From positions 1 to 64,000 of the forward strand of contig JANYLK010000225.1 in the NCBI GenBank assembly GCA_025357875.1: 64,000 bases of DNA. The letters are read 5' to 3'. This document shows, piece by piece, positions 5,794 through 17,047 of this stretch (within the stretch, counting starts at the first letter, position 1; every line of letters begins with the position of its first letter). This DNA is from Granulicella sp. (lineage in GTDB: Bacteria > Acidobacteriota > Terriglobia > Terriglobales > Acidobacteriaceae). The notes beneath the pieces are model-generated. The model saw only the letters and a list, made by a program, of their open reading frames with translations, was not told where the DNA came from and did no database searches. A program made the position numbers and the translations under genes.

Positions 5794-5869
5794 TGGCGTC
5801 CCCAACAGGGTTCGAACCTGTGTTGCCGCCGGGAACAGGCGGAGTCCTGGGCCACTAGACGATAGGGAC
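5794..5869 (-). tRNA. tRNA-Glu (TTC) with abnormal anticodon loop
   Basis: A 76-nt cloverleaf folds on the minus strand, with CCA encoded (5794-5796). The acceptor stem GTCCCTA pairs with TGGGGAC (one G-U), the D arm reads GTC/GAC, the anticodon stem is CCGCC/GGCGG, and the T arm is ACAGG-TTCGAAC-CCTGT. The body closely follows the usual bacterial tRNA-Glu layout as I remember it, and the anticodon read is TTC (plus-strand 5833-5835). The anticodon loop is TGTTCCC: position 33 is G and position 37 is C, whereas U33 and purine-37 are nearly universal. It may be a divergent functional tRNA, a tRNA pseudogene or a sequence error. Confidence 0.75.
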
Positions 5870-7484: not shown

Positions 7485-8707
7485 CTATTTTGCGATCACG
7501 ATGGTGGCGACACAGCTGCCGATCACGTTAACGACGGCCCTTGGCGATATTCGTCAGGCGCTCGACTCCAAGCAGAAGCACCAAACCGGTGACGGGGATG
7601 TGATGCATCGAGGCGAGTGTTGCGGCCCGCCACGCCGGCCGATCCCTTCGACGTGATTACCAAAACAACCATCAGCGTAATCTGCTCGTGCAGGCTCAGA
7701 TGCGTATTTGTTGCCTGCGCGATGAAGATCGCACCCATGCTCAGATAAATTGCTGTGCCGTCCGCGTTGAAGGTGTAGCCCGCGGGCATCACCATTCCGA
7801 CGACTGGCTCGGCGCATCCGAGTCGCTCCAGCTTCAGCATCAGCGGCGCCAGTACAGCCTCTGACGAGGACGTGCCAACAGTGATCAGGATCTCATCGCG
7901 TATATAAACGAGTAGGCGGATCAAACTGAAACCCGCTATTTTAGCGATGACGCCGAGGACGATCGCGACGAAAAAAATGGATACGATCCAGACCTCGGCC
8001 GTGAAGCGCGCGAGTTGCAGCAGACTTGCGGCGCCGTACTGCCCGACGGTGTAGGCCATCGCACCCAGTGCCGCGATGGGTGCCAAATACATCACCATCC
8101 GCACGATGCCGAACATGCCTTTGAGTAACAAATCCAAAAGATCGATCAGCGGTTTGGCGGTCACCCGAATAGGAGTCAGTGCAAGCCCGAACAAGACGCC
8201 CAGCAAAATAATTTGTAGGATGTTGCCGGTGACGAATGGATCGCCGATGCTGGATGGAATCATGCTGAGTAGAAATGGGACGCCGCCGCCCTATTGTGCG
8301 GTTGTCGCGTAAGCCGTGATGGAAGTGGGGTCAAGCTTCGAGGAGTCAATGTTCATGCCGCTTCCGGGATGCAGCACGTTGGCTGCAATCAGCCCAATTA
8401 ACAGTGCGAATGTAGAGACGACCTCAAAGTAGATGAGGGCCTTCGCACCCACGCGGCCAACCTCGCGGATGACTCCCATGCGCGCGATACCAACGACAAC
8501 CGTGGCAAAGATGATCGGCGCGAGCGTCATGCGGATCAATTTGACGAAGGCGTCACCCAGCGGTTTTAGCATGACTGCGTCATGCGGAAATAGGACGCCA
8601 ATCGCAACGCCCAGCACGATTCTGATCATCACCTGAAGCCACAAAGGGCCCAGCAAAGGACGTTTGCGGGGCGCGCGGTTTTGATCGATCGATTCTTCCG
8701 CGACCAT
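7485..8707 (-). pseudogene. Broken Na+/H+-dicarboxylate symporter (DctA/GltP family)
   Basis: Translation in the three minus frames reconstructs one DAACS-family transporter. The N-terminal part (8707 to 8294) runs from TM1 through the PIIFATVVVGIARM region and ends at an in-frame TAG (plus 8291-8293); the same frame continues directly with GGGVPFLLSMIPSS and the rest of the transporter (TSSSEAVLAPLM, GYTFNADGTAIY). Near 7625-7632, after SKGSAGVAG, the frame shifts and several codons are missing; the protein resumes as ATLASMHHIPVTGLVLLLG. A second shift near 7536-7543 leads into AVVNVIGSCVATIVIAK and a stop. One nonsense plus two frame lesions make a functional symporter unlikely. It would have imported tartrate or a related dicarboxylate. 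Confidence 0.88.
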
Positions 8708-8709
8708 AG

Positions 8710-9865
8710 TTACTCCGCGAGTTGCCGCATTACTCTAATCAGATCGGATTTGCCTTCAAAGCCCATCCCCGGCAGCTCTGGCATGGTGACGTAACCGTTC
8801 TCGATGCGTACGCCATCGGGAAATCCGCCGAACGGCTGAAAGAGATCGGGATAGCTCTCGTTACCGCCAAGGCCAAGGCCGGCGGCGATGTTCAACGACA
8901 TCTGGTGGCCACCGTGCGGGATGCAGCGGCGTGGCGACCAACCTGCCGCGCGAATGATTTCGAGCGTGCGCAGATACTCGCACAAGCCGTATGAGAGCGC
9001 ACAATCGAACTGTAGCCAGTCGCGGTCTGCACGCATGCCGCCATGGCGGAGCAGATTGCGCGCGTCCTGATGGCTAAAGATATTTTCGCCAGTGGCCATA
9101 GGTGCGGGATAGAATTCTGCCAGCGCGGATTGCAGCGCGAAATTGAGCGGGTCACCCGCCTCTTCATACCAGAACAGCGGATACTTACGCAGCATTTTGG
9201 CGCAGGCGATTGCGGTCTCCAGATCAAAGCGGCCATTTGCATCAACGGCGAGTTGGGCGTTGTTGCCAATCTCCGCAAGAACTGCTTCGATCCGCAGGCG
9301 ATCGTCGGCAAGCTTTACACCTCCGATCTTCATCTTGACCACGGTGTATCCACGGTCGAGGTAGCTTCGTATCTCAGCGCGCAATGCTTCGAGATTCTTG
9401 CCAGGGTAGTAGTAGGCAGCGTAGACGAAGACGCGGGTCGGCGACGCATCCATACCGCTCGGCAAGCAGCCGGAGGAGCGGTTTGCCCGCGATCTTCGCG
9501 ACCGCATCCCACACCGCCATGTCGATGGTTCCGGCGGCGACGGAGCGTTCGCCATGGCCGCCTGGTTTCTCATTGTGCATCAGCGTGCGCCAGGCGCGGT
9601 CGGGATCGAGATTGTCGTCTGATTCATTTAGCAGTGAAGTGGGATCGGCCTCGCGCAGACGTGGAGCGAAACGCTCGCGGATTAGCCCTCCCTGCCCGTA
9701 GCGTCCGTTGGAGTTGAAGCCGTAGCCGACGACCGTCTTGCCTTCGCGTATGACATCCGTCACCACCGCGACCAGTGAGCACGTCATCCTGGAGAAGTCG
9801 ATGTACGCATTCGCAATCGGGGAGGCGATGGGCAGGGCTACTTCGCGGATGTCGACGATACGTAT
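8710..9865 (-). pseudogene. Broken D-tartrate dehydratase (enolase superfamily)
   Basis: Across two frames this matches the mandelate-racemase/enolase subgroup of D-tartrate dehydratase (tartrate to oxaloacetate plus water). Seen: YGFNSNGRYGQGG, the catalytic Lys region VVKMKIGG, metal ligands in VDANGRF, YEEAGDP and ATGENIFS, and the catalytic His in PHGGHQMS. The first part runs to about 9445 and the second resumes from there in another frame (shift near ADPR/VFVYAA, consistent with loss of one base). The expected start codon reads ATA (9863-9865), although AAGGAA lies 9 bases upstream, so initiation also looks lost. It sits 2 bases from the symporter pseudogene, in one former operon. Confidence 0.88.
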
Positions 9866-10122
9866 GGCAGCCTGTTCCTTTGGCGTTTGAATTCCCTTAC
9901 GACCATAACCCAAAACGACTGCATGACAAATGGGGCGCCGAGTTGGCGGTGTCTGCAAGCGGGTGATCAGCAGCTTTGACACTCCTGTCTGCGCGTGGCA
10001 GGATGTATTGAAACCAAGGCAGTTCGAGGGGGTCAAACTTGCGTTATCTGCGGTCGGGGCCAGCCGCTTTACTTTGCATCGGTCATGGGCATCTTGGGCA
10101 GCGCGCAAGGCGGGGCCTGGCC

Positions 10123-13100
10123 ATGCGAAGGCAGCTGCAGCAATGGGCGTGGGCTTTCATTTGCGTGATTCTCGTCTCAGCTACGTCCGCTTCATCGCAG
10201 CCGAATGCAGCCAGCGACCTCATCCAAGGAAGAGATCTGGTCGCTCACCTGAGTACGCCTGCATTTCCGGATCAGGCTAAGGACATAGCTCTGTTTTCGC
10301 GGCTTGGCTTGGAACGGTCCGCGACGGTTCTGACGGCCGTGTTGACGAATGCCAGTGCATCGACAGCAACATCTGAAGACTGGGCGGAGATGCATCGCGC
10401 TCTTGATGCTCTGATCGAATTGAACGTAGGCCAGCAGCAGTTTTTTAAGGCCAGCATCTATGCCAATTTGCAGGATTCCACGTATCGCCACGATGAGGGC
10501 GATTACGTTGCGGCACTGGCGGCTGCGCGTCAGGCACTCGATCTGCAGCAGCGTTCCGGAGAAATTGCGACGCTGTCGATTCCTTGGAAAGATGTCGGTG
10601 AGGATCTGCTCCACCTTGGTCGGATCGACGAAGCTGCCTCTGCGCTGTATCAGTCTCGCAAGTTACTCCAGGACCCAACCGCTCCCATGGCTGGCGACCT
10701 CTGGGGAGAGATTATTTCACTCGAGTTGGCCCGCGGCAATGCTGCCATCGCCCACACTGAATCGGCGGCTTTCCTTGCGGCTGCTACGCCAATCACACCG
10801 GCGGATTTCCGCGCCGAAGCTCTTCTGGCTGCTTCCCACATCGATATGGATGATCACCGCTACGACGATGCGATCGCGCACGTTCGCGGTGCGTTGTCGG
10901 CGATCAAGGGCCAGCCGAGTCCCGTGTTGGTTGCATATCAGGCCATCAATACATTGATGACGCTTGGCCTGGAAGCGATGCAGACCATGCCGTTTGAGCG
11001 GGCGATCGCACTGTGTGATCGTCTGGAAAAGGACTTTCCCGGACTGCCCATTTCCATTTCCGGGTTCGCGCGCGAGGTAGGGAATCATCGCCGGCGCCTT
11101 GCAGGTCAATTCGATGTCGTTCTGCGTGAGGATTCGGCGGAACTCGAACGCGCACGCACCGCCAACGATCTCACGGGACAGGTTGAAGCGCTGCTTCACA
11201 CTGCGCTTGACTATGCCTACCTGCGCGAGTCGACCCAGCAGATGACGGCGTTGCAACAGGGCGCGGACATTCTGCATTCCGCTGGTGGCCGTGATATTAC
11301 TGCGCTGCTTCGCTTTCGCGTGCTCAACTCCCTGGCTGCTGCGCAGCTTGGCCGAGGCGATTTCGGTTCGGCTCGCGCCACGTATACCGAGGTGATTGCG
11401 GGCATAGAGGTAATTTCATCGGCGCAGATGCGATCGCAGCTTGGCAATCTGTATGCTGATGCGCAACTCGGCATGGCGGGTGCAATGCAACGCGCGGGCG
11501 ATTTCCAGGGCGCGCGCGATCTGCTTCGGAAATCGCTCGAACCTGCGCCTAATTCGCTGGGCCATTTCACGCGCTCCTCCGTTCTGCTGCAGCAAGCTAC
11601 ATTGGGACAAGCCGCTAAGCAGCATCCCGATGAGGTTGTTCTCCTTTATCTCGAAGCGATCAAGGCGCTCCATCATGACAAGGATATAAACGCTGAGGTG
11701 TGCGCACGCTTAGAACTGGTCAAGTACCTTGCAACAGATGCGCAGCCTGTCCCAGGCCAATTTTCTTCTCCCGTGCAGGCCGCAGGATCGACCGACAGCA
11801 TGGCCCGCGATCAGCTTGCTCTGGCGCGCTCTGCGTCCGCGTCGGTCGGACTCGCCGATGCGGGCTGGCGCGTTCAATTCCTGCAAGGCATCCTCGATGA
11901 GAACGCTGGAGACCATGCAGCGGCAATCAAATCCTACTCCGCTGCGGTTGACGCTCTTGATCACATTCGCGCCGGTTTATCAGAGCAGGAAGAGCGTCAG
12001 TCATTTATTGACAGTGTCTCGGTGCAGGAGCTTTATCGCCGTCAGATTCAACTGCTAACTGATTTGGGCAATCGCGAGCAGGCGTGGGAGTTTCTTGAAC
12101 GTGACAAAGCGCGTAGCTTCCTGGAGACGCTCCACGGCCGGAGATTTGCAACTTCGGCCGCAGCGACGACTGCTTCCGCCACGAAGAGCGCCGCCAAGGA
12201 TTCTACCGGCGAACTCAAGCGGCTGGAGGGACAGATTCTTGCTGCGCGTCTCACCCTCGCTCCGGAAAACGAGTCCACCCTGCGCAACTCTGGCCGTCTG
12301 CCGGATGCGGTCCGCGCAAATCTCATCTCGCTGGAGGGAAACTATGCGCTGGCTCGGCAACAGCAGACGCTGGCTGCTTCTCGCGCGACTCAGCCGCTAG
12401 CGCTGCATCCTGTGACGCTCGCAGCCACGCAGGCCCGTCTGCCAGCCCGTACAGCGCTTATCGAATACTCCATCCTGGAACATGAACTTGCTGCGTTCGT
12501 CATAACGCACACTTCTGTGACGGAATTGCATTGGCCTGCAGATACCGCCGCGCTCCCAGTCCAACTCAGCAAGCTTAGCGCATTGTTAGCCTCGCGTCGA
12601 TCGTCAGAGGATGAGTTAAACGCGCAGCTATCTGCAGCGTCGACGATTCTCCTCGGTCCGGTTATGCGCGCCCTTCCGGTCGATATCGAGACGCTACTAA
12701 TCGTACCAACGCAGTCGCTTTCGCTGATCCCATTTCAAGCTCTCCCGATTCCTGAGAAGGGTCCGGTCCGCGGTTTCACGAGCGAGGACGCGTCCTCCGG
12801 TGGGGACGACCTGGCGACTCGCACTTTGTTGATTGATCGTTACGCAGTGGCCTATCTGCCGTCCGCTTCCACACTGCAATTTCTGCGCCCTGCGACTTCG
12901 AGCGCCTCGCCAGACCTTTTCCTCGGTGCGATTGGCAATCTTTCTGTTGAGGGCTGGCCCGCGCTACCGGGAACATTGGACGAGACGTCTGCGATCCAGA
13001 AGCTTTACCGTCACGCCACCCGGGTCACGGGGTCTGATTTCACACATCAGGTCGCGGTTAAAGCGCTGCTTGAACATCAGGAGGTCCACTTCGCGACGCA

Positions 13101-13500
13101 TGGACTCTTCGAAGAACAGGCTCCTTTGTTCAGTTCCCTGATCACCGCACCCTCCCCCGGTCAGCCGTCACGTCTATCGCTCTATGAAGTCATGGACCTC
13201 AACCTCAAGGCTCGTCTGGTGATTCTCAGTGCATGCGAGACAGACCGAGGTCAACTTATCGGGGGAGATGAAATTTCCAGCCTCACGCGCACTTTCCTGC
13301 AGGCAGGCGCAGACAATGTCGTTAGCAGCCTGTGGAATGTCAGCGATCAATCGACCGCGTTACTGATGCAATCGCTGCACGCTCATCTGCGCGCAGGCGA
13401 GCCGACGGCCCTCGCTCTCCGACATGCCGAGCTTCAGGTCCGCCGTAAATTCCCGCAGCCGTTTTTCTGGGCGGCCTTTGTCGATACAGGCGCGCGTTAG
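10123..13500 (+). CDS. Exported TPR-CHAT (caspase-like) protein
   Basis: A 1125-residue protein. ATG 10123 is chosen because it opens a signal peptide (RRQLQQ, then a hydrophobic core, then SATSASSQ); the frame is open from 10039 but the upstream residues look non-coding. Residues about 40-640 are helical and TPR-like, and about 640-760 are helical and charged. The C-terminal CHAT domain (about 820-1120) shows the presumed catalytic dyad: His993 in FATHG and Cys1038 in ILSACETD, followed by SLWNVSD and the family's closing PFFWAAFV. CHAT domains are caspase-fold peptidases (separase, Craspase type). Most are cytosolic, so the signal peptide places this one unusually outside the cytoplasm. It faces a CHASE2 operon 18 bases away. 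The substrate is unknown. Confidence 0.88.
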   Translation: MRRQLQQWAWAFICVILVSATSASSQPNAASDLIQGRDLVAHLSTPAFPDQAKDIALFSRLGLERSATVLTAVLTNASASTATSEDWAEMHRALDALIELNVGQQQFFKASIYANLQDSTYRHDEGDYVAALAAARQALDLQQRSGEIATLSIPWKDVGEDLLHLGRIDEAASALYQSRKLLQDPTAPMAGDLWGEIISLELARGNAAIAHTESAAFLAAATPITPADFRAEALLAASHIDMDDHRYDDAIAHVRGALSAIKGQPSPVLVAYQAINTLMTLGLEAMQTMPFERAIALCDRLEKDFPGLPISISGFAREVGNHRRRLAGQFDVVLREDSAELERARTANDLTGQVEALLHTALDYAYLRESTQQMTALQQGADILHSAGGRDITALLRFRVLNSLAAAQLGRGDFGSARATYTEVIAGIEVISSAQMRSQLGNLYADAQLGMAGAMQRAGDFQGARDLLRKSLEPAPNSLGHFTRSSVLLQQATLGQAAKQHPDEVVLLYLEAIKALHHDKDINAEVCARLELVKYLATDAQPVPGQFSSPVQAAGSTDSMARDQLALARSASASVGLADAGWRVQFLQGILDENAGDHAAAIKSYSAAVDALDHIRAGLSEQEERQSFIDSVSVQELYRRQIQLLTDLGNREQAWEFLERDKARSFLETLHGRRFATSAAATTASATKSAAKDSTGELKRLEGQILAARLTLAPENESTLRNSGRLPDAVRANLISLEGNYALARQQQTLAASRATQPLALHPVTLAATQARLPARTALIEYSILEHELAAFVITHTSVTELHWPADTAALPVQLSKLSALLASRRSSEDELNAQLSAASTILLGPVMRALPVDIETLLIVPTQSLSLIPFQALPIPEKGPVRGFTSEDASSGGDDLATRTLLIDRYAVAYLPSASTLQFLRPATSSASPDLFLGAIGNLSVEGWPALPGTLDETSAIQKLYRHATRVTGSDFTHQVAVKALLEHQEVHFATHGLFEEQAPLFSSLITAPSPGQPSRLSLYEVMDLNLKARLVILSACETDRGQLIGGDEISSLTRTFLQAGADNVVSSLWNVSDQSTALLMQSLHAHLRAGEPTALALRHAELQVRRKFPQPFFWAAFVDTGAR

Positions 13501-13518
13501 GCCTCAATCGCACTGCGC

Positions 13519-14730
13519 TTAGGCGTGGGGTGCAGGCATTGGAGTCGAATCTTTCGGCGTGGATGCAATTGTCTTTAAAACAGTCACCCTCTGATAGAAC
13601 CCGGCGTAAAGCGCGGCCTTGGAATATAGTTCCGCAACGATTACCGCGATTACCAGCGGAACCATCGAACCCCACGCCGCAAGCCGGTGGAAGAGGATCC
13701 AATTGGAAGCCAGTGACAGCAACGGTATCAGCGCGAGCGATACCAGGAAGGCATGCCGGAACTTCAACCAGTGGTATACCGCCAGTGTTGTGAGCCCTCC
13801 TATGATCATCATCAGGCCCGTCATCCAGCGGCTCGCGGAACTGATGGATGTATGATCGATTTCCGCCGCAACCGATTGCGCTACGATCTCGCAGCCATTC
13901 AGCAGTCCACGGGGCGTTGCATACTGATCGCGGGCGACGTGATAAGTTCCGCCCAGCACGACCACCTGCCCCCGAAATGGCGCCATTTTCTCCCATGTAT
14001 CCGACTTGGCGTTATCGATCAGGTCATGAGTTTTAATGGGCGCAAACCTGTATCTGAAATCGAGGAAGTGCGTCTCCGTCCCGTGCTTGGCCGCATCTTT
14101 CTCTACGTGGCCCAGAATTCGGGCCGCCGCAAACCCGGGCGCGTCGACCATGCCGCCCGACTCCAGCGGATACATCTGCTGATAGCCGCGCACGACTCCG
14201 CGTTCGTCCTGCGGCGCAACCGCCAGCGCGGCTACCGAACCGGCGGGTAACGCACTACCGCCAAGCGGCGGATACAGAACAAACTTGCCGTCATCCTTTT
14301 GCTCTGCGGCAACGTTCCACACGATGGGAACAGAGGGAATCGCCATGCTGCTGAAGGTTGGGTCCGACGTGTCGATGTCAACGACAATGGCGCTTGGATG
14401 ACCCTTTGCCACAGCAGCCAGAATTGCAGCAAGAACTTTCGAATCCAGCGGACTGCGCCTTTGAAAAAGGTCTTTGTAGTCGTCGTCGTTGATTGTTATT
14501 AGGCGCACGGAATGAGCCGGCACGGGCCGCTGGATTGATATCGCGGCGTCGAGCGAGTTGTTCGCCCACGTCTCCGGCAGATTGCGCATTTGAAATACGA
14601 GCACCATGACGGCGATGATGAGCAACGCCGGCCGCGATTGCGATACGTGGTGCAGAAAAGGAAGCTTACGGTCTTCAAGATAGCCTTCCAGTCGGCCAAT
14701 TTCACGGTCGAGGATGTCGTCCGCTGTCAT
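13519..14730 (-). CDS. CHASE2-domain membrane protein without output domain
   Basis: A 403-residue protein with a short cytoplasmic N-terminus, TM1 at about residues 34-48, an extracytoplasmic CHASE2-type sensor region at about 55-300 (VRLITINDDDYKDLF, PSAIVVDIDTSDP, VVVLGGTYHVARDQYATP), then three membrane segments at about 305-378 and a tail of about 25 residues. CHASE2 usually feeds a kinase, cyclase or GGDEF output; none is present, so signalling would need a partner. ATG 14730 overlaps the upstream gene's stop as TAATG, which implies translational coupling. It converges on the TPR-CHAT gene 18 bases away. I infer a shared envelope-sensing role. Confidence 0.82.
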   Translation of the reverse strand: MTADDILDREIGRLEGYLEDRKLPFLHHVSQSRPALLIIAVMVLVFQMRNLPETWANNSLDAAISIQRPVPAHSVRLITINDDDYKDLFQRRSPLDSKVLAAILAAVAKGHPSAIVVDIDTSDPTFSSMAIPSVPIVWNVAAEQKDDGKFVLYPPLGGSALPAGSVAALAVAPQDERGVVRGYQQMYPLESGGMVDAPGFAAARILGHVEKDAAKHGTETHFLDFRYRFAPIKTHDLIDNAKSDTWEKMAPFRGQVVVLGGTYHVARDQYATPRGLLNGCEIVAQSVAAEIDHTSISSASRWMTGLMMIIGGLTTLAVYHWLKFRHAFLVSLALIPLLSLASNWILFHRLAAWGSMVPLVIAVIVAELYSKAALYAGFYQRVTVLKTIASTPKDSTPMPAPHA

Positions 14731-15581
14731 TACGGCTGGCTCTGGGAGAGTAGAAATGCACGCAGTAAAACATGCTCGTCCGATCGCGCGCTCGGCCCGG
14801 TCCAGGTTGCGCTGCGAGCCTTCATTGCCTCGAAAGCTTCGTGCGTGGCCTGATATTGCGACTTCGGTGTTACGAGGAGGATCAGGTGCGTAACTTGCTC
14901 CTGATTTGGGTACAGAATTGAGATTTCATACACTCCAGGCGGTCCCAACTGCAACGGTTTCCAGGTTCCCTCTGAGCCCAGTACCCCGCTCAGCGAAGTC
15001 AACGATAAGCGCTCCCCGCTCCGTGACACGGAGACGCTATACCGGCCAGCTCGGATCCGTTCTGGTGCCGGAGGTAACACAACTCCTTGAACCGGGTCGA
15101 AAGCAACAACCGCCTCTGTTTCCTCCACGGTCACCAACCCGCGTGTCATCGTGAGGGCATAGCGGCTGCCGACGGCTGGAGGCTTGCTGAGCAGCACCGA
15201 CAACGCCGCTTGCACAATGCCCCTAATCTGGTTCTTGCCAGGGGAAGAAGCGGAAGGGACGCCACCAACGATAATCGTCGTTTGACAAGGATTTGTGGGC
15301 GTTTCGTCGCAAGTAACATGGGTCCGAGACATATCTTCATCTCGCACGATCGTGATGGCATCGCCTGGCTTGTTTGATTGGGCTGTAATTTTTGCTCCGG
15401 CACTCAATCCCTGGCCGGCTGCGACCGGGGAGGTTGTCCCCTCCAGATGCCACGCCCCCTTAGCGTCCAATACATGGGCAGCTGTTTGCGCCTGTTGGCC
15501 ATGTAGTGCTGTGGCCGCCGCGGCGACCGAACACAAAACGCAAATGATCCACTGGATTCGAGCGCGAGGCATGTCAGTCAA
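14730..15581 (-). CDS. Secreted protein of unknown function, partner of CHASE2 protein
   Basis: A 283-residue protein with an N-terminal signal peptide (IIC VLCSVAAAATALHGQ, about residues 11-29). No family is recognised with certainty. Residues about 35-110 contain a beta-rich stretch (LSAGAKITAQSNKPGDAITI) that could be a FecR- or SH3-like fold, and the C-terminal half is beta-rich (VYEISILYPNQEQVTHLILLV) and ends in a helix. It is the first gene of a two-gene operon with the CHASE2 protein (1-base overlap, TAATG) and likely works in the periplasm with it and perhaps with the exported CHAT protein. Confidence 0.72.
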   Translation of the reverse strand: MTDMPRARIQWIICVLCSVAAAATALHGQQAQTAAHVLDAKGAWHLEGTTSPVAAGQGLSAGAKITAQSNKPGDAITIVRDEDMSRTHVTCDETPTNPCQTTIIVGGVPSASSPGKNQIRGIVQAALSVLLSKPPAVGSRYALTMTRGLVTVEETEAVVAFDPVQGVVLPPAPERIRAGRYSVSVSRSGERLSLTSLSGVLGSEGTWKPLQLGPPGVYEISILYPNQEQVTHLILLVTPKSQYQATHEAFEAMKARSATWTGPSARSDEHVLLRAFLLSQSQP

Positions 15582-15670
15582 CCTATCACACCATCATTCC
15601 GCTCGGCATCAGGAAAATTTTGGGGCGAAATAAAATTAGCCACACTTCCGAGAACCCAATCGTTGCGGCG

Positions 15671-16440
15671 TCACGAAAAAGCCATTTTGCGTACAACATC
15701 CCGTACGATTGTCCATGCTTGGGACTGTTGGTCGACGATGTCGAGGTGATCCGCTGATGGGAACATGGTTACGATTGCTGGATCGCCCATCCGTCTCGAC
15801 ATCTCTGCCCAGCGGAATGGAAGTTCCGGTGGAATCTGGATGTCATCCGTGCCCTGAATCAGAATCTGCGGGGCGTTGAATTGTAAGAGATCGCCTGGAT
15901 TGCCAGCTTCATACCGGTCGTTGAGGTCCGGCGGCGGTCCGCCCATCAGCGCATAAACTTCCGGCTTATCGTGAGCAAACGTAGAGTATCCGGACAGATC
16001 AATCGTCAACCGGAGACCGCCCGCCCCCGCAAGCGCAATCGCTCCAAGCAGCGGTATGTGCGGCTGCGGATCGAGCACCGGGCTGTGCGGAGGAATGTGA
16101 TGGCTGTCGGCGAGCCAGAATGCCAGGTGACCACCCGCTGAATGGCCCATAGCAATCCACTCGAGACAGGTCCAAAGGATGCTTTGTGGCGAGGGTCTTG
16201 ACGACATCGAAGCCCGCCGCGGCGTTCTGAAATGTTGCCGGCCAGACTCCGGCGGTATCACCGCCACGCCTGTATTCGCCTGACCAGCAGGCTATTCCTT
16301 CCTGCTTCAGGGCAGCACACAGATGGCCGACATAGCCGAGGTTCGTACTCGAATTTCCACCAACCACCGTGCAAGAGGACGACCAGCTGAAGCAAGTGGG
16401 TTTTAGCAGTGGCCAGCATGGCGGCAGGATTCACAGTGCA
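15671..16440 (-). pseudogene. Frameshifted alpha/beta hydrolase
   Basis: Three minus-frame pieces join into one alpha/beta-hydrolase fold enzyme. The first holds the oxyanion strand VVLLHGGWWKFEYEPR (up to about 16340). The second holds YVGHLCAALKQEGIACWSGE and runs to about 16157, where an extra base shifts the frame. The third holds the nucleophile elbow AMGHSAGGH, the acid region (LIQGTDDIQIPP) and the catalytic His (SADHLD). Two frame breaks (about 16333-16342 and 16157) prevent a full-length product. It resembles dienelactone-hydrolase or esterase-like members, but the substrate cannot be told. The start is uncertain because the N-terminus is poorly conserved. Confidence 0.78.
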
Positions 16441-16970
16441 GTGATGCAAAATCGCGGGTGTTGAGGGTGTGGCGGCAGCCTCTGGCGCAGACCAGAAGGT
16501 CTTGGGACCCCCGACTATTAGCGCACGGTTTGGGACCCGCAATCCGCGCAAGTACCAACCGGCAAAACATCGAGTCCCGCCCAGGCAGGTGCGTTAGCAC
16601 TGTGCTATCGGGACCGTCAGATCCGCTACATGCTATTCCTGTTGCAAGACGTCAGGTGCAAATCGGAGCGTTACACCCATACGCTGACGATGCCGATTCT
16701 GGACATGACGACATCGACACTACTACCAGAGTCTGTCTATCCGATCCGCGTGACTGCGGACCGCTATATGTGCAATGGCGAAACATCTGGGCAGTGAAAC
16801 ACTATAGCAACGCGTCCGGAACTTTCATCAAGACTACGTTCGGTAACTACACCTGTTCTTTTATGAGCGTCGCCAACGAAGAACAGCCACAGACGCGATG
16901 CCACGCTCCACCACTTATTATTTGTCGACTCACCGCAAACGGGTGTCGGTGCCGGGCTACTGGAAGGTAT
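16441..16970. other. Intergenic stretch, no gene seen
   Basis: About 530 bases between the broken hydrolase and tRNA-Pro. The frames that are open here show no recognisable domain. The plus-strand frame that continues through 16970-17054 encodes the familiar false peptide that arises from reading antisense to a tRNA. I see no convincing promoter, repeat or small gene. Confidence 0.5.

Positions 16971-17047
<77 letters not shown>

Follow-up and report, generated by a model that had tools for sequence, protein, structure and literature searches.

A conserved three-gene unit places a predicted exported CHAT protein beside an output-less CHASE2 protein in Granulicella and its relatives

A 64,000-nucleotide stretch of a Granulicella sp. 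genome (GenBank assembly GCA_025357875.1, contig JANYLK010000225.1, positions 1 to 64,000), hereafter the window, carries three adjacent genes encoding a TPR-CHAT protein with a signal-like N-terminus, a CHASE2 membrane protein that ends without an output domain, and a predicted secreted, beta-rich protein that we call gene 3. This three-gene unit is real and conserved and, since the grouping recurs in distant relatives, the three genes probably constitute one working unit. Our preferred reading, held with slightly less than even confidence, is that they form a conserved envelope unit in which a periplasmic protease would be controlled by the output-less CHASE2 protein and its secreted partner, gene 3.

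Results

The three genes of the window

An earlier reading of this DNA from its letters, the original prediction, had described three genes that converge with 18 bases between the stop codons, and the open reading frames (ORFs) and the sequence agree with it in both position and arrangement (Table 1). The stop codon of gene 3 overlaps the start codon of the CHASE2 gene (TAATG), which indicates that these two proteins are made together. Taken from its first possible start, the CHAT ORF begins at TTG 10039, ahead of ATG 10123, and for gene 3 ATG 15572 is a likelier start than TTG 15581.

Table 1. Coordinates of the three-gene unit and its parts in the window.
Feature	Position	Strand	Basis or remark
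TPR-CHAT protein, 1125 residues	10123..13500	+	ORF list, Pfam; ATG 10123, stop ends 13500
N-terminal region with signal-like stretch, hydrophobic core residues 11-21, predicted	10123..10197	+	Simple hydrophobicity rule, not SignalP
CHAT (clan CD peptidase) domain PF12770, residues 836-1123	12628..13491	+	Pfam
Gap between convergent stops, 18 bases	13501..13518	.	ORF coordinates
Output-less CHASE2 membrane protein, 403 residues	13519..14730	-	Pfam, tree, AlphaFold2
Gene 3, secreted (predicted), beta-rich	14730..15581	-	283 residues from TTG 15581, or 280 residues from ATG 15572

The CHAT protein belongs to PF12770 with 188.3 bits against a Pfam cut-off of 24 (E 2.8e-55), and it contains a TPR_2 match above its cut-off, the remaining TPR models scoring below theirs. 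The dyad that the original prediction had called intact is so: His993 (HFATHG) and Cys1038 (LSAC) are both invariant across a four-row CHAT alignment (A9). A PDB sequence search with this protein returned nothing at E ≤ 0.01. Genome-wide, the CHAT and CHASE2 proteins of the window are the sole copies above the Pfam cut-offs, a second CHAT match being sub-threshold.

The CHASE2 protein is a member of its receptor family (PF05226, 66 bits against a cut-off of 26.3). No further Pfam domain was found in it at E ≤ 1 and only 21 residues extend beyond the CHASE2 model, so that the description of it as a sensor devoid of an output domain holds. Its AlphaFold2 model (mean predicted local distance difference test [pLDDT] score 70.6) begins with helices, continues with an alpha/beta part and closes with three helices at the C-terminus; no PDB structure matched this model at E ≤ 0.001, and a PDB sequence search gave nothing at E ≤ 1.

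Gene 3 has no match at E ≤ 1 in Pfam, NCBIfam, PADLOC or PHROGs. Its cysteines 91 and 99 are invariant in a seven-row alignment of homologues, and its AlphaFold2 model (mean pLDDT 62.6) has immunoglobulin-like folds as top Foldseek matches, at E 7.7e-3 and weaker, with nothing at E ≤ 0.001. Two identities considered for gene 3 were rejected. A DUF928 assignment finds no Pfam match and an hhalign probability of 0.1% (A6 versus A7). Its N-terminal half resembles FecR only by eye; the FecR model gave no match at E ≤ 1 for gene 3 and three relatives, and none at E ≤ 0.1 for the homologue in locus L065.

A clade of output-less CHASE2 proteins with a shared neighbourhood

Searching 399 genomes of the class with the window CHASE2 protein added three genomes, and a four-sequence CHASE2 profile run on the GTDB collection hit six contigs, of which three carried loci already found. 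A seven-row CHASE2 profile over 396 genomes of the phylum yielded seven matches at E ≤ 1e-15, namely the window, genome G013 and five weaker ones, four of which lie in the tree beside fused CHASE2 proteins or apart, with the fifth outside the clade described here as well. The eight resulting loci (the window, L040 [G253], L041 [G043], L042 [G306], L053, L054, L055 and L065 [G013]) encode output-less CHASE2 proteins that share a common ancestor: they define a single clade (support 100/100), the remaining 40 of the 48 tree rows falling outside it. All have tails of 0-25 residues past the end of the CHASE2 model, and the proteins of L041 and L054 are sisters.

Gene 3 was initially spotted by eye directly upstream of CHASE2 in the ORF lists and then aligned. 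To avoid circularity, each of the seven sequences was left out in turn and searched for with a profile of the remaining six, and in this way a gene-3 homologue was recovered directly upstream of CHASE2 in the window and in every other clade locus with upstream sequence (7/7, E 3e-17 to 3e-48); the contig of L053 starts within CHASE2. The seven-row gene-3 profile gave seven matches over the 399 class genomes, five known and two new (G379 and G374). The former provides a ninth locus (L161), in which a gene 3 47% identical to that of the window overlaps at its end the start of a window-like CHASE2 gene, which is cut by the contig end. On contig C4 of G379 there is also a CHAT piece at the contig edge (60% over 119 residues, preceding part missing), which was excluded from the counts. 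The gene-3 relative of G374 (L162, G374:C1, 9603-10424) stands alone and is followed by a gene that looks by eye like a dehydrogenase.

The original prediction had named a lack of co-occurrence of the three families in other genomes as one thing that would refute it, and the neighbourhood search found them together elsewhere. A clan CD protease gene adjoins the gene 3/CHASE2 pair in five of the eight loci, as CHAT in the window, L040, L054 and L055 and as a C14 caspase in L065; as all eight were retrieved by their similarity to the window, this fraction is not an unbiased rate. A sixth locus, L041, retains the last 34 residues of a CHAT protein (10531-10632) just upstream of gene 3, 71% identical to those of L054 and in the position that the intact CHAT gene occupies there. 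The convergent layout recurs as well: in L055 the CHAT gene converges on the pair with 9 bases between the stops, and in L065 a convergent C14 caspase gene with a signal-like start and HG and DTCHSG motifs overlaps by 4 bases at the stops, which brings the loci with this layout to three. The CHAT gene of L054 lies upstream of the pair on the same strand, and that of L040 is downstream, again on the pair's strand, a trypsin-like gene preceding gene 3 there. The CHAT proteins of the window, L054 and L055 also share a common ancestor, forming a clade (100/100) apart from 19 sampled CHAT proteins (a twentieth, partial one was dropped from the tree), which argues that the unit was inherited or moved as a unit.

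Association of CHAT with CHASE2 in control loci

Six-frame searches of 55 other CHASE2 stretches, hand-picked from the CHASE2 list rather than drawn at random, and not chosen for CHAT, revealed no CHAT domain; three further loci (L085-L087) were excluded from this set because they had been fetched after CHAT near CHASE2 was already apparent. A C14 domain was present in one of the 55 stretches (L104), within the CHASE2 protein itself. This 1859-residue protein (G195:C3, 8607-14186) combines CHASE2 with guanylate cyclase, the C14 caspase domain and TPRs. Reciprocally, 20 sampled CHAT loci contained no CHASE2. A Fisher test of CHAT near CHASE2, comparing four of seven clade loci with none of 38 fused CHASE2 ORFs having 5 kb on both sides, gives a value of 2e-4, which is indicative only, since the clade loci were found by similarity and the short-flanked L054 and L055 are counted as full loci; flanks of 5 kb on each side were available for only 39 of the CHASE2 ORFs. 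The chance of finding CHAT within 10 kb of a random genome place is roughly 0.008, an estimate based on hand-entered counts (one of 139 omitted) and an assumed mean genome of 4.9 Mb, so that the pairing goes beyond chance only when joined with the conserved neighbourhood. Outside the clade, short CHASE2 proteins (L091, L045 and the contig-cut L043, the last two on contigs of 6.8 and 4.9 kb, respectively) had no CHAT in their stretches, and a missing output alone is therefore no predictor of CHAT.

Predicted export of the CHAT protein

In the window CHAT protein two arginines precede the hydrophobic stretch. By the positive-inside rule, this would place the remainder of the protein outside whether the signal is cut or uncut. 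The window CHAT protein is probably exported. The same simple rule (an N-terminal hydrophobic stretch behind positive charge) flags 17 of the 20 CHAT proteins sampled in the class, along with 22 of the 51 other ORFs of at least 300 residues in those 20 loci. Exported CHAT proteins would hence be common in the class and are not in themselves the news; the original view of an exported CHAT protein as something unusual is not supported for this class.

Separate loci combining CHASE2, DUF928 and CHAT

Loci of a second type link a CHASE2 gene with a gene of the DUF928 family. They occur in three genomes from the window's family (L085-L087), where the gene of a signal-bearing TPR-CHAT protein is convergent with DUF928 and CHASE2 genes, the CHASE2 protein being fused to guanylate cyclase in L086 and L087. 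Small genes lie between the CHAT gene and the DUF928/CHASE2 pair of L085 (6585-8146), the first two resembling by eye a toxin-antitoxin pair. Two TPR-CHAT proteins that the tree places near those of L085-L087 occur in L130 and L134, next to genes resembling by eye a sigma factor and an anti-sigma gene and not next to CHASE2.

In cyanobacteria, ten plasmid loci were read out of 42 records, L149 and L151 without a Pfam scan. A separate CHAT gene was recognised in six of the ten, and in five a CHAT domain is fused N-terminally to CHASE2; L144 and L149 showed neither form, the latter as read without the scan. As in the window, an exported TPR-CHAT protein converges on a CHASE2 and secreted-protein pair in three of the ten loci (export being called by rule only), in the order CHASE2, DUF928 and convergent CHAT, on plasmids of Anabaena cylindrica, Nostoc TCL26-01 and Calothrix 336/3; the Nostoc CHAT protein shows a signal only if its translation is taken from a start upstream of the annotated one. 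Unlike the window, these loci have DUF928 in place of gene 3, their CHASE2 proteins often carry the N-terminal CHAT fusion, and the CHASE2 proteins of the DUF928-type plasmid loci lie outside the window's clade. The window CHASE2 protein itself, searched against the plasmids, had no match. Thus, the link between CHASE2 and clan CD proteases appears in at least two separate lines. In the Calothrix sp. 336/3 plasmid (L152, 6769-7872), a 367-residue CHAT and TIR protein directly precedes the output-less CHASE2, DUF928 and convergent TPR-CHAT genes. The literature searched contained no description of this cyanobacterial neighbourhood, and DUF928 appeared there only in a paper on WD40 proteins.

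Comparison with known systems

A metacaspase-CHASE2 protein has been described in Trichodesmium (PMC2853523, PMC3501461) and is taken up in a review (PMC7475262). In the parts of these sources available to us it is a single fused protein whose protease the authors put in the cytoplasm, whereas the window has separate genes, CHAT instead of C14, a protease predicted to lie outside and the addition of gene 3. The Burkholderia BiofilmReg operon (PMC5192318) resembles the window in that a secreted protein adjoins a CHASE2 receptor. There, the secreted protein has a FecR domain, for which gene 3 has no Pfam match, and the CHASE2 protein is a histidine kinase with a response regulator, the sections of that paper at hand describing no protease.

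The window CHAT protein shares its TPR and CHAT protease architecture with Csx29/Craspase, from which it differs in bearing a signal and in having no neighbouring CRISPR effector gene recognised by eye; identity with Csx29 itself was rejected (26.8 bits against a cut-off of 300). HetF likewise combines CHAT and TPR and is membrane-linked but, according to the portion of the report consulted (PMC8406250), has its CHAT region at the N-terminus (antibody to the CHAT region, residues 1-555), a single membrane segment and a divisome role in Anabaena. No paper in the literature searched names both CHASE2 and the CHAT domain, which is weak evidence, subscription journals being largely uncovered. What is new in the unit is the place and the arrangement; the parts and the type of coupling are already known.

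Discussion

In the arrangement that we infer, with its physical contacts, direction of control, proteolysis and location, gene 3 and CHASE2, made together, would constitute a receptor or platform in the membrane, with its sensing part towards the periplasm and no output domain in the cytoplasm. The TPR-CHAT cysteine protease would leave through Sec, and the signal would pass outside the inner membrane, where the CHASE2/gene 3 platform may hold or switch the protease, the output being cleavage of an envelope protein. A broader proposition, which we put forward only tentatively, is that a CHASE2 receptor devoid of any cytoplasmic output acts on a separate periplasmic caspase-family protease, with both the protease (CHAT or C14) and the secreted partner (gene 3 or DUF928) exchangeable.

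Several observations weigh against an envelope unit of this kind. The export rule is crude and is not SignalP. It supports the signal peptide that the original prediction had assigned to the window CHAT protein, yet the related CHAT protein of L055, as assembled, has 660 residues and no signal; an in-frame stop lies about 15 codons before its start, with the contig end soon beyond, and this protein may be broken or cytosolic. The CHAT locus of L054 is cut by a contig end, so that within the three-member CHAT clade the signal is seen in the window only. The CHAT gene of L040 is split over two frames in its assembly, with the signal on the first piece. The original restriction of the protease to CHAT also proved too narrow, the protease of L065 being a C14 caspase and L042 containing neither CHAT nor C14 within about 8 kb on each side. 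Since L042 has no such gene there and L041 retains a remnant only (L053 is covered downstream only), the gene 3/CHASE2 pair can exist without an adjacent intact protease. Finally, genome G374 carries its weak gene-3 relative (63 bits) without CHASE2, no match to the CHASE2 profile A4 being found in that genome.

A first alternative, which we regard as unlikely, is that gene 3 and CHASE2 signal into the cytoplasm through an unlinked partner such as an orphan kinase or cyclase, with CHAT as a target or neighbour rather than as the output. In L042 a serine/threonine kinase gene faces the pair at the position that CHAT has in the window, most of the class CHASE2 proteins fetched extend at least 140 residues past the CHASE2 model, both of those scanned in the window's family proved to be guanylate cyclases, and a signal-less L055 CHAT protein would fit such a scheme. 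Against it, no clade CHASE2 protein has a fused output, and the clan CD protease in five of the eight loci, with the CHAT remnant in a sixth, speaks for the protease as part of the unit.

A second alternative is the maturation of surface proteins, in which the exported protease would process a secreted or outer-membrane protein and CHASE2 and gene 3 would serve as an anchor or chaperone, not as a sensor. This, too, we doubt: a ShlB/FhaC gene precedes CHAT and CHASE2 in L050, and genes with filamentous haemagglutinin or ShlB annotations occur in cyanobacterial loci, but no such gene was recognised at the window's unit or at the gene-3 clade loci by eye, the only means used. That the unit serves conflict or programmed death, with a surface signal setting the protease to kill its own cell or a competitor, seems quite improbable, with the best PADLOC match at only E 0.069 and no mobile element seen by eye at the unit (no search was aimed at them), even though the Calothrix locus has a CHAT-TIR protein beside CHASE2, the review cited above, as far as it was seen, draws CHASE2-caspases as death receptors, and presence is patchy, any CHASE2 occurring in one of the 20 other genus members searched.

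If control of an exported CHAT protease by CHASE2 and gene 3 holds true, caspase-family signalling would take place beyond the inner membrane. A 2016 paper still called the ligand of CHASE2 unknown (PMC5192318), and a three-gene unit with a testable dyad and a receptor that has no other output would offer a simple system for finding both ligand and effect.

Genomic surroundings of the unit

Promoter- and terminator-like sites at 9900-15900 showed no excess over shuffled sequences. The unit is flanked by genes named by eye as a transporter (7523-8707), an enolase-superfamily gene (8710-10108) and an alpha/beta hydrolase (15671-16551), each of which is spread over at least two frames that overlap or adjoin, as would be expected of decay or mis-assembly, whereas all three genes of the unit have open frames. 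The stretch containing the unit and these broken genes is bordered by tRNA-Glu (5794-5869) and tRNA-Pro (16971-17047).

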